Shown here: positions 1,741 to 44,642 of the stretch, in pieces
Position numbering within the stretch: the stretch's first letter is position 1
Layout of the letters: each line of letters opens with the position of its first letter
Assembly (NCBI GenBank): GCA_018971835.1
Contig: JAGWZW010000003.1
Span: 19,123 to 83,122 of the forward strand
From: Alphaproteobacteria bacterium
GTDB taxonomy: Bacteria; Pseudomonadota; Alphaproteobacteria; Micropepsales; Micropepsaceae
Direction: 5' to 3'
Length of the DNA stretch: 64,000 bases
The notes under the pieces: generated by a model
The model's database searches: none
Seen by the model: only the letters and a program-made list of their open reading frames with translations
What the model was told of the DNA's origin: nothing
Made by a program: the position numbers and the translations under genes

Positions 1741-2226
1741 CTATTTCACCGGTTCCTTGCGCTTGGGAACCGAAATCCCGTCGGTGCCGGACAGGCGGAT
1801 GGTGATGGTGTTGTCGCCGGGCGCCACCGTGAATTTGGTGCTGTCGAACGACGGCGCGGAGAGGAACGGCTTGGCGTTGTTGGAGAAGCCGTAGGGCTCC
1901 AGCGGCAGACCCAGCCAGCTGGTATCGAACTTCCCGTTCTCGTTGATGTCCTGCATCATCTTGACGGCATAGACACCGGGCTTGAGGCCGGAAATGACGA
2001 TGGTGGTGCCGGCCGGATCGGCCGGCACGTCGCGGCTGAGGGTGGGATGATCGTCATCCTCGTAATTCGCCGCGGTATAGAGCGCGAGCGAAATCTTCCC
2101 GCCCTTGGGCGAGACATGCGCAACCTTGACGGTGAGTGTAGCCGTGTCGACGGCAGGCGTTTCGGCGGCAGGCCCAGAGGGTGCCGCCGCCGATAGCGCA
2201 GATGCCAGGACCAGAGCCGCCAGCAA
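1741..2226 (-). CDS. DUF2141 domain-containing protein
   Basis: 161 aa; GGKISLALYTAANYED...ISGLKPGVYAVKMMQDINENGKFDTSWLGLPLEPYGFSNNAKPFL is typical of DUF2141. TTG start immediately after the mdh TGA. Confidence 0.8.
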   Translation of the reverse strand: MLAALVLASALSAAAPSGPAAETPAVDTATLTVKVAHVSPKGGKISLALYTAANYEDDDHPTLSRDVPADPAGTTIVISGLKPGVYAVKMMQDINENGKFDTSWLGLPLEPYGFSNNAKPFLSAPSFDSTKFTVAPGDNTITIRLSGTDGISVPKRKEPVK

Positions 2227-3201
<975 letters not shown>

Positions 3202-3382
3202 TCATCGAGAGCCGGCCGGTTCGTAGCGCGGGCACGCGCGCGGGGCAAGCGGCGCACCGCCGCGGACCGGCTTCCGCAATGCGGACGCAGTTGCGGGCGC
3301 ATGAACGCAAAGGGCCGGGCACCGCACGACACCCGTACGGACCCGGCCCATTACGCAATCGGAACAGAAGATGAAGGAACGG

Positions 3383-3709
3383 TCAGACCGCTTCCTTCAG
3401 CTCCTTGGCGGCGCGGAAGGCAACCTTCTTGCTGGCCTTGATCTTGATGGCCTCGCCCGTGGCCGGGTTGCGGCCCATGCGGGCGGCGCGCTTGCGCACC
3501 TGCAGGATGCCGAGCCCGTTCAGACGGACGCGAACGCCCTTCTTGAGCTGCTTGGTGATGACGCCGGCCATGTCGTCCAGGATGGCGACGGCCATCTTGT
3601 TGGAGAGTTCATGCTTCTCCGCCAGCTGGGCGGCGAGCTGACGGGTGGTCATGGTTTCCGTCTTCGTCTTTGCGGCGGCCTTGGATGCAGTCTTGGCGGC
3701 TTTTGCCAT
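3383..3709 (-). CDS. HU family DNA-binding protein with Lys/Ala-rich N-terminal extension
   Basis: 108 aa; MTTRQLAAQLAEKHELSNKMAVAILDDMAGVITKQLKKGVRVRLNGLGILQVRKRAARMGRNPATGEAIKIKASKKVAFRAAKELKEAV. Confidence 0.92.
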   Translation of the reverse strand: MAKAAKTASKAAAKTKTETMTTRQLAAQLAEKHELSNKMAVAILDDMAGVITKQLKKGVRVRLNGLGILQVRKRAARMGRNPATGEAIKIKASKKVAFRAAKELKEAV

Positions 3710-41751: not shown

Positions 41752-42477
41752 TCAACGGACCCGGATCAAAGCCGGCGGCGGTGCTGTCATGATGTCCAGC
41801 GCCTCGATCAGCCGCAGCATCGGTTCGTCCATTTCCGCGTGCAGCGTCACGCCCTTTTCGCGGCTGACGACGAGGCGCAGATGCGGCGCCTTGGGATGGC
41901 TGCGCAGCGTCGGGCGGATCGACGGCGGAGGAGGAGGCGGCGGCGGGGGATCGTAGGTCGAGAGCGGTTCATCCTCGCGCACGATCTTGGAACCGACCAG
42001 CCGCTCGAAGGCGATGGGCCGGCCGATGAGCTGGCTGGCATCGCTGGTGATCTGCATCAGGCCGATGAAGCGCGTGGGGGCGCCCTCGCCGAAGCCGCCA
42101 TCGCCAAATTTGATGGGGGCCAGCACGGTTTCAATCTCGACCATCGCGCAGTCGGCGGTGGCCGCCACCGAGGACAGGCACACCGGCTGGCGGGTATCCA
42201 GCGCCTGCTTCAGCAGCAGTGACAGCGCGCCGCGGCTTTGTGCTTCCCAGTGGGTGAAGAAATTGGTGCCGCGCAATTCAGAGCCGTAACGCTCGCACAC
42301 CGAAGTGCCGGCCAGGCGGTAAACCGGCCGCGCCGTATCGGCCGCATCCAGTATGAAGACGTAGGACAGCATCCGCTTGATGGCGCGCGGATCGATTTCG
42401 GTCTGGTCCGGTACCGCCCGGCCGCGGCGCAAGCGGCTCCAATACCCCACAAGCAAATGGCTGTTCCTATGTTTCAT
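41752..42477 (-). CDS. PAS domain-containing protein (PAS_5-like)
   Basis: 241 aa; GYWSRLRRGRAVPDQTEIDPRAIKRMLSYVFILDAADTARPVYRLAGTSVCERYGSELRGTNFFTHW. Confidence 0.85.
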   Translation of the reverse strand: MKHRNSHLLVGYWSRLRRGRAVPDQTEIDPRAIKRMLSYVFILDAADTARPVYRLAGTSVCERYGSELRGTNFFTHWEAQSRGALSLLLKQALDTRQPVCLSSVAATADCAMVEIETVLAPIKFGDGGFGEGAPTRFIGLMQITSDASQLIGRPIAFERLVGSKIVREDEPLSTYDPPPPPPPPPSIRPTLRSHPKAPHLRLVVSREKGVTLHAEMDEPMLRLIEALDIMTAPPPALIRVR

Positions 42478-42670: not shown

Positions 42671-43375
42671 TCAGCCCCAGGGGCCGCGCCGGACCTCGCC
42701 GAACAGCGGAAACTGCGCCGATTTGAACATGGGTGTTAGAAGCCCTCCCGCCAGGAAGCCGCCGATATGGGCCCACCAGGCCACGCCACTGTCGGCCTGG
42801 CCGCCGAGCGCGGCGCTGAGCAGCTGGAGCACGAACCAGAAGCCCACTACCCAGATGGCGCTGATCTTCATCGGGTAAAGAATGATGCCGAGCGGCACGA
42901 TCACCGTCACCCGCGCCCGCGGATAGAGCAGCACATAGGCCGCCAGCACCCCCGAGATCGCACCCGAGGCGCCGATCATCGGCACCGGCGAAGCCGGATT
43001 GATGGCGGCCAGGGTCAGCGCCGCCGCCACCCCGCAGATCAGATAGAAGAGCAGATAGCGCAGGTGACCCATCGCGTCTTCGACGTTGTTCCCGAAAATC
43101 CAGAGGTAGAGCATGTTCCCGCCGATATGCAGGAAGCCCCCATGCAGGAACATGGAGGTGAAGATGGTGGCCCAGACCGGTACGGAGACATAGCCCGGCG
43201 GCGGCAGCAGCGCATGACCAAGCGCGGCCGGCGTGAAGCCGAGCAACGCCAGTGCCGGCGCCATGCCGCGGCCGAGCGACAGTTCCCAGGCGAACACGAT
43301 CGCGCAGGAAAGGATGATCGCCCAGGTGACGACGGGCACGAGCCGAGCCGGATTGTCGTCCGAGATTGGGATCAT
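42671..43375 (-). CDS. Rhomboid family intramembrane serine protease
   Basis: 234 aa from ATG 43375; FTSMFLHGGFLHIGGNMLYLWIFGNNVEDAMG, MIGASGAISGVLAAYVLLYPRARV, AWWAHIGGFLAGGLL: GASG serine and second catalytic His present. Confidence 0.95.
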   Translation of the reverse strand: MIPISDDNPARLVPVVTWAIILSCAIVFAWELSLGRGMAPALALLGFTPAALGHALLPPPGYVSVPVWATIFTSMFLHGGFLHIGGNMLYLWIFGNNVEDAMGHLRYLLFYLICGVAAALTLAAINPASPVPMIGASGAISGVLAAYVLLYPRARVTVIVPLGIILYPMKISAIWVVGFWFVLQLLSAALGGQADSGVAWWAHIGGFLAGGLLTPMFKSAQFPLFGEVRRGPWG

Positions 43376-43565
43376 CCGATCAGCATCCTTTCCAGACGGG
43401 AGCGGTGCGTCTGTCCCGTTTTGAACCATTTTGCGCGACACGGCCCCGCTTCGACATGGCACGGATCGTGAAGCGGAAGCGCAGCCTGACAAGGCATTGT
43501 GCATATTTTCGCTCGAAGGCGGAGGCCTCGCTTTTAACCTCGCCGTAGGAGCAGGGAGTTCGATC

Positions 43566-44642
43566 ATGCTGTTGAGGCCGGTGATCTATTATATGGGCGT
43601 GCTGGCGGCGCTGGCGGCGGTTATGCCGGCCGCGCCGGCGGCAGCGGGCGGCTTCGGCCCGGCCCCGGGCAGCTACGGCGCGGGCAGCGGCTGGTCGCAC
43701 GGCCCGGCCTGCAACACCGGCGGCAGCACGCTGAACATCTACAAACCCGTGACGATCAGCAACAACGTCAACATCTACAAGCCGGTGACGATCAACAAGA
43801 ACGTCAACATCTACAAGCCCGTCACGATCGACAAATCCATCAGCATCTACAAGCCGGTGACCATCACCAAGGACATCAGCATCACCAAGAACATTGATCT
43901 GTCGAAGAACATCAACATCAGCAAGAATATCAGCATCAACAAGAGCATCGTCATCAACAAGGGCGGCAGCAGCAGCGCGGAGGCTTCGGCCATCGCCTCG
44001 GCCTTCGCGCAGGCAATGGCCAGCGCCAGCGCCTCGGTGACGGTGAACAACAATATCAGTGCTGCGGCGGGGGCTGGCGCGAGCGCGGGTGCCGCCGTCT
44101 ATAACAGCAACAGCTATCAGGACGTGAAGATCGTCAACCGCGGCGGCGCGATCGGCGCGGTCCATGCCGAGCAGCACTGCACCATGCAGGAAGCCAGCGT
44201 GGTCAAGGCGATCCACGCGGTCTGCGTCGCGGCCAATGGCGAGGAGTTCCCCGCCTCGCACATGATCCCCGATACCTGGATCGACACCTCCTATGAAGGC
44301 GAAGTGGCGCGCTGCATCCCCGGCGCCCATCTCAAGGTCACCATCGGCGACGTGCTGCAGTCCGACCAGGGCATGGCCGGCACCTATGCGAACGGCACAG
44401 TGATCGCCTGCGGCATGCACGAGGCCCTGCGCCACTACAAGGACGGCATGCTCAAATGCGCCCCCGCAGTGCCGGTGCCGGACTGCACCGAGCGCACCAA
44501 TCTGCGCCGCTACGGCACGGGCGATTTGTTCTTCTCGTTCCGGGCCCAGGTCTGCGTCGAGTCTGCGGCCGCGGCCCAGTCGGATCTCGACGTCTCCGGC
44601 ATGACGCTGGACGGCGGCGTGGGCGAGGACAGCACCTACTGA
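43566..44642 (+). CDS. Secreted hexapeptide-repeat protein of unknown function
   Basis: 358 aa from ATG 43566; signal peptide-like N-terminus, 13 tandem hexapeptides (NIYKPV/TISNNV...), Ala/Ser-rich spacer, C-terminal domain with 7 Cys (8 with the one before the repeats). Confidence 0.85.
   Translation: MLLRPVIYYMGVLAALAAVMPAAPAAAGGFGPAPGSYGAGSGWSHGPACNTGGSTLNIYKPVTISNNVNIYKPVTINKNVNIYKPVTIDKSISIYKPVTITKDISITKNIDLSKNINISKNISINKSIVINKGGSSSAEASAIASAFAQAMASASASVTVNNNISAAAGAGASAGAAVYNSNSYQDVKIVNRGGAIGAVHAEQHCTMQEASVVKAIHAVCVAANGEEFPASHMIPDTWIDTSYEGEVARCIPGAHLKVTIGDVLQSDQGMAGTYANGTVIACGMHEALRHYKDGMLKCAPAVPVPDCTERTNLRRYGTGDLFFSFRAQVCVESAAAAQSDLDVSGMTLDGGVGEDSTY
43734..43967 (+). repeat. In-frame tandem repeat (four 36-nt units then five 18-nt units)
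   Basis: AACATCTACAARCCSGTSACSATC-type 36-nt units followed by AGCATCACCAAGAACATT-type 18-nt units, encoding 13 hexapeptides. Confidence 0.9.

Follow-up and report, generated by a model that had tools for sequence, protein, structure and literature searches.

Comparative genomics defines an undescribed alphaproteobacterial protein family by a Cys-rich C-terminal domain and a GGVG tail

Gene locus and protein architecture

The window, a 64,000-nucleotide stretch of a Micropepsaceae contig, carries at positions 43566..44642 of the plus strand (ATG at 43566, stop at 44642, from the ORF call) a gene for a protein of 358 aa. The gene is present in one copy, being the sole match found in its own genome. 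The gene order at this locus is GMC oxidoreductase, a small hypothetical gene, PAS_5, rhomboid, the gene under study, and then sucC-sucD-sucA, with PadR and DUF2218 genes situated between our gene and the suc genes. The adjacent divergent gene (42671..43459, minus strand, start approximate) encodes a rhomboid-family intramembrane protease (Pfam PF01694, 3e-34). It is followed by a gene for a MopJ-like PAS_5 protein (41752..42477, minus strand; PF07310, 1e-29), which contains a run of nine prolines.

The protein starts with a probable Sec signal peptide (aa 1–27, 43566..43646, plus strand), read by eye from the sequence as LLRPVIYYMGVLAALAAVMPAAPAAA followed by GG, with the boundary at AAA/GG. 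Homologues likewise start with a hydrophobic segment and A-x-A, and the N-terminus is signal-like in members with an intact start. A lone cysteine, C49 (43710..43712, plus strand), lies ahead of an array of 13 hexapeptides with a 12-residue superperiod (aa 57–134, 43734..43967, plus strand). Downstream follow an Ala/Ser/Gly-rich linker, predicted to be disordered (aa 135–204, 43968..44177, plus strand; pLDDT about 32–45), a conserved Cys-rich C-terminal domain of roughly 125 residues with seven Cys (aa 205–331, 44178..44558, plus strand; delimited by AF2 and alignment), and a C-terminal tail, LDVSGMTLDGGVGEDSTY (44586..44639, plus strand), with GGVG at aa 350–353. A preliminary description of this DNA had pointed to the secreted-looking N-terminus, to 13 tandem NIYKPV-type hexapeptides, and to seven cysteines in the C-terminal domain with an eighth before the repeats; our reading, for the N-terminus again made by eye, agrees on each.

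Repeat array

The hexads of aa 57–134 read NIYKPV-TISNNV-NIYKPV-TINKNV-NIYKPV-TIDKSI-SIYKPV-TITKDI-SITKNI-DLSKNI-NISKNI-SINKSI-VINKGG. All 13 have I or L at position 2, 12 have K at position 4, and 12 have V or I at position 6, as had been noticed earlier for the hydrophobic positions and the usual lysine. The combined rule [ILV]2-K4-[ILV]6 is followed by 11/13 hexads, while shuffling those residues 100,000 times gave at most 4. At the DNA level, Tandem Repeats Finder reports periods of 18, 36, and 72 nt (score 202 for 43734-43883). Since synonymous changes outnumber non-synonymous ones in pairwise comparisons of the four xIYKPV copies (10 vs. 3), these small numbers suggest that selection keeps the protein repeat, as opposed to fresh DNA duplication.

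The identity at variable array positions is 0.41, 0.64, 0.42, and 0.53 at lags of 6, 12, 18, and 24 residues, respectively. Judging by these values, the 12-residue superperiod is better matched by a unit of two hexads than by a coil of 18 residues, and it could also reflect the duplication unit. Lysine is favored in the array region (K+R 14, D+E 5). However, the lysine face is not universal, as the pre-domain net charge goes down to about neutral in several relatives.

Structure prediction and fold searches

AF2 was applied to the whole protein with 46 sequences and to the array alone with 12 sequences. The C-terminal domain, whose modeling had been proposed in the preliminary description, is predicted to be beta-rich with one helix (strands 206–221, 245–249, 255–266, 269–284, 286–290, 296–300, and 321–331; helix 307–316), with pLDDT of about 91–97 over most of residues 211–300. 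In the same model, the array reaches pLDDT of about 75–80 over residues 61–100 and contains no strands; alone, it yields a mean pLDDT of 58.8 and no secondary structure, and Foldseek found no fold match for it at E<=10. Outside the domain and the array, pLDDT is mostly below 50. The segments below 50 do not include residues 349–353 with the GGVG motif, a weak hint in the model that the tail may dock. For the full model, there is no significant PDB fold match by Foldseek (best E 0.22), and PDB sequence-profile searches yielded no significant match either (best 0.11, N-acetyltransferases, covering only the array).

A small beta-solenoid had been proposed for the array, along with the remark that the repeat does not match the left-handed parallel beta-helix (LbH) hexapeptide. 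Left-handed beta-helices have hydrophobic residues spaced i, i+4, i+6. The array follows this spacing: as in LpxD, LpxA, and Hexapep (PF00132) proteins, aliphatic residues occupy i and i+4, and the spacing persists through consecutive hexads (positions 2 and 6 in 13 and 12 of 13). There are also weak LpxD, LpxA, and Hexapep profile matches over aa 58–145, at 25.4 bits (6e-6) for LpxD against a cut-off of 242.5 and 13.8 bits for Hexapep against 27. Hence, the remark on LbH proteins stands mainly for the Gly position, whereas the aliphatic spacing and the weak LpxD match do fit them. An LpxD-type acyltransferase was rejected, the likeness being confined to the repeats and far below the cut-off.

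It nevertheless seems doubtful that the array forms an LbH-like solenoid, lysine-faced and serving as a ligand-binding surface or a rigid rod. Unlike LbH proteins, the array lacks the Gly/Asp/Glu preference at i+1, has Lys fixed at i+2, and has its highest identity at lag 12 and not at the 18-residue LbH coil; the protein has no acyltransferase domain. In relatives, units two residues longer (IDASKNI) break the hexads. Neither the strands nor the helix expected of a solenoid were built by AF2, its confidence for the isolated array is low, and no fold match was obtained. Given the tendency of AF2 to over-predict beta-solenoids when repeats are perfect (PMC11795689), its failure here speaks against a solenoid in the monomer, though it is no proof.

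The same failure to fold as a monomer is favorable to a functional amyloid, or to a flat two-sided beta-roll of 12-residue turns stacked between molecules, where order would arise only in the fibre. The 12-residue superperiod with its alternating polar and aliphatic residues agrees with this, as do the Asn-rich arrays and Asn runs of relatives and the occurrence of two CsgG-family genes in the same genome. Indeed, the protein resembles the curli system in being probably secreted and having Asn-rich tandem repeats. Unlike curli, it matches neither the curlin repeat nor any other amyloid family in Pfam, has no csg linkage, carries Lys in almost every unit, and contains a large folded Cys-rich domain; the CsgG-family genes lie on other contigs, and CsgG is not amyloid-specific. 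We consider fibre formation of this type unlikely.

The two CsgG-family genes, both above the cut-off and unlinked to the locus (G000:C53:8638-9270 and G000:C86:15742-16254), are candidates for an outer-membrane exporter.

Distribution of the family

No Pfam or NCBIfam family was found at the cut-off for the window protein or its distant orthologues, and literature searches on the genus and on repeats of this type yielded nothing about the protein among the papers listed. The earlier impression that no characterized family is recognizable holds, with no strong whole-protein match to such a family in the Pfam, NCBIfam, and PDB profile searches. The family was matched in 49/100 relatives. In contigs of named genomes, 29 loci were found, several of them in the same genomes under a second handle (e.g., L042 = L024, L058 = L006). 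Among them is the Rhizomicrobium electricum locus L058, whose family ORF agrees in length and score with that of G038 (L006), a genome of the same genus as the window; Rhizomicrobium (Micropepsaceae) is thus the most likely genus of the window. A profile of the C-terminal domain matched 58 of the 96 genomes of the order, with one match per genome. In an even draw of the class, matches came from 17/385 genomes and 8/276 genera, and all 12 matches in a draw of the phylum belonged to Alphaproteobacteria. As far as these draws go, the family looks confined to Alphaproteobacteria. No plasmid homologues were found.

The Cys-rich domain, the GGVG tail, and the signal-like N-terminus occur together in the own genome, throughout the genus, and in several other alphaproteobacterial families. 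By this comparison of sequences, the gene belongs to an undescribed family defined by the Cys-rich C-terminal domain with the GGVG tail and not by the repeats. Domain identity to that of the window is ~47–72% within its own group. Very strongly conserved motifs are PASHM..DTW, EGEV.RC, EALRHYKDGMLKC, and CTERTNLR..G, and when distant members are included in the alignment, 10 columns are invariant, four of them Cys (C220, C250, C282, C298). The GGVG tail is kept in most homologues, other families included, with 0–6 residues after GGVG in tail-bearing members. Of 24 pattern matches in the own genome, only this gene has such a tail beside the stop codon. GGVG was also dismissed as a general sorting tag, because with this pattern no second gene of the genome has the tail.

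Two departures from this architecture were observed. In L106:5427-6677 (plus strand), the domain looks circularly permuted: two profile matches occur in reversed order, the LSCRPQEV..RTCFERSLLRKYGPGD part preceding the RAVCVDD..YRC..LSC part, and the GGVG tail is still last. In L059:4041-5570 (plus strand) and L068, a full hexad array is present without the Cys-rich domain and the C-terminus is still GGVGDRY; this looks like a deletion of the domain between glycine-rich regions.

Variation of the middle region

Everything between the signal-like N-terminus and the Cys-rich domain varies. Short forms have from a few to about 16 hexads and an Ala/Ser-rich stretch. In one clade, hexads and longer IDASKNI-type units are joined by as many as ~3,000 residues rich in G, N, T, and S, the position of these giant N/T/G/S-rich stretches corresponding to the linker of the window protein (aa 135–204). 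In other families, the middle region is made of Asn runs, alternating V/D/E, KNYNYN, Pro/Cys, Pro, or NPSPVVPG-type repeats. From this comparison, the segment evolves fast, and the NIYKPV-type hexads are the form it has taken in one group.

At one locus in one genus, recognized by the PAS_5 gene upstream and/or sucC downstream, protein length ranges from 287 aa (L078) to 3,832 aa (L060). Giants at the suc locus, mostly G/N/T/S, include L060:2975-14470, L061:3076-13221, and L062:3-7370 (all plus strand), with 2,456–3,832 aa, the shortest of these being cut by the contig end. Giants in open frames without stops occur in several independent assemblies (e.g., L060, L061, L062, L052, L054). In the domain tree, the giants form one clade (support 100/97) nested in a larger rhomboid-less group of 16 rows (support 88/81). 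The L061 giant has three C-x5-C pairs (CQNMAGC, CENMAGC, CQNAYGC). Taken at the level of sequence comparison, this length series points to a surface or matrix protein that is free to change its length in evolution.

Cysteine counts

The cysteines of the window protein are at positions 49, 205, 220, 250, 282, 298, 307, and 330. Exactly seven domain cysteines are present in 41/41 intact members, with none after the domain. Before the domain, there is one Cys in 35 of the 41, three in two, seven in one, and two in three members; in one of the latter, L078, one of the two is inside the signal peptide. An even N-terminal number thus occurs in 2/41 (L008, L014). An odd pre-domain count together with seven in the domain makes all cysteines pairable in about 39 of the 41 members, and this parity predicts, by Cys counting, a disulfide between the N-terminal region and the C-terminal domain, either inside one molecule or from one molecule to another. 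L008 and L014 argue against it.

Seven cysteines and very strongly conserved motifs would also suit a periplasmic redox, metal-binding, or enzymatic domain, to which the repeats were only a tether. We consider this improbable: the domain has no family in Pfam, NCBIfam, or PDB, successive cysteines in its sequence are separated by 9 to 32 residues and form no CxxC, and soluble enzymes do not usually carry giant low-complexity expansions. Matches to the ferredoxin-like domain NF007422 (E 0.029), zf-RAG1, and TSP1 were dismissed as chance-level.

Genomic context

PAS_5 is the most widely kept neighbor, being divergent and upstream in families f1, f4, f9, f63, and f137 (9/12 distant orthologous loci); in f1, f4, and f9, the GMC gene lies beyond it. 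PAS_5 includes MopJ, a Caulobacter regulator of cell cycle and motility (PMC4432633). With 46 bits against the MopJ model (cut-off 200), the PAS_5 protein of the window is a relative of MopJ and not MopJ itself. A regulatory link between the PAS_5 gene and the divergent family gene is possible in several alphaproteobacterial families. In the distant orthologous locus L097, a pentapeptide-repeat protein (1989-3395, plus strand) is encoded between the GMC and PAS_5 genes.

The rhomboid gene adjoins nearly all syntenic short forms. It lies between PAS_5 and the family gene only in family f1 and is absent beside the giants, whose genomes contain only distant rhomboids elsewhere. Because the position is f1-only and row L055, basal in the midpoint-rooted tree, has the rhomboid, the gene was probably inserted early in f1 and then lost in the group with the giants.

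This adjacency, together with a C-terminal motif containing GG, recalls GlyGly-CTERM/rhombosortase systems, and the neighboring rhomboid, the only one scored, has a weak match to the rhombosortase profile (TIGR03902, 29 bits, cut-off 84). It is very unlikely, however, that this rhomboid processes or sorts the protein via the GGVG tail. In GlyGly-CTERM proteins, by definition, a transmembrane helix and basic residues come after the C-terminal motif, and up to thirteen proteins per genome belong to this type (PMC3237569). The window protein, in contrast, has neither a C-terminal transmembrane helix nor a basic cluster, the 0–6 residues after GGVG being too few, and its tail is not common to many substrates but occurs in one protein per genome. 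The giants keep GGVG with no adjacent rhomboid, and other families lack a rhomboid between PAS_5 and the family gene. Rhombosortase sorting was rejected as the main explanation on the profile score, on the distant rhomboids of the giant genomes, and on the short and unique tail.

In most genomes, the neighbors are PAS_5, rhomboid, and sucCD. Adjacency to exopolysaccharide (EPS) genes is confined to one sub-clade (L024, L040, L041, L044), where the gene is beside Poly_export/SLBB, Wzz-type, kinase-like, and OMP-like genes (the latter two named from sequence, without Pfam matches) and GGVG is lost. In L040, L041, L044, and L108, all without GGVG, polysaccharide-export genes and an alpha/beta hydrolase replace the suc locus. 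The own genome has three Poly_export genes.

Possible function

We favor a secreted, disulfide-braced structural protein of the surface or matrix with a length-variable spacer, and give this reading a probability of roughly 0.45. It draws on the signal-like N-terminus, Cys counts, length series, conserved domain, Lys bias, and EPS adjacency; against it are the lack of a known adhesive domain and the restriction of EPS adjacency to one sub-clade. The preliminary description had speculated on a surface or polymer-binding role, and that sub-clade lends the idea indirect support.

Under this model, the protein would be exported by Sec, and the C-terminal domain would fold in the oxidizing periplasm around two class-wide disulfides (C220, C250, C282, C298), C205, C307, and C330 being putative additions in this group. 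The leftover odd domain Cys would pair with the lone N-terminal one, either closing the array into a loop or joining molecules head to tail. The array of Lys-rich hexads, together with the Ala/Ser/Gly linker, would form an extended length-variable spacer touching an acidic polymer or its own copies, and the conserved domain and GGVG tail would do the specific work of anchoring or assembly. An extracellular fibre held by head-to-tail disulfides from the N-terminal Cys to the spare domain Cys, with spacing set by the array and Gly/Asn-rich filler, is a more speculative version of this model, and we regard it as improbable.

In keeping its ends while the repeat stalk expands freely, and in having orthologues that differ more than tenfold in length, the family is reminiscent of low-complexity, length-variable surface adhesins of the serine-rich and SD-repeat types. 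Unlike those, it has no cell-wall anchor or known ligand domain, occurs in Gram-negative bacteria, and ends in a Cys-rich domain without a matching fold. It is best seen as an undescribed, unusual protein family of the secreted repeat-rich surface or matrix kind.

The family is absent from the libraries searched, yet occupies a conserved locus across several families of Alphaproteobacteria, and its confidently predicted domain matches no solved fold. The range of 287–3,832 residues at the same locus in one genus constitutes a natural series on repeat length in a putative surface protein, and the constant cysteine rule opens a direct biochemical question of polymerization. If the fibre reading were true, one gene would have evolved from roughly 300 to roughly 3,800 residues with its ends unchanged.
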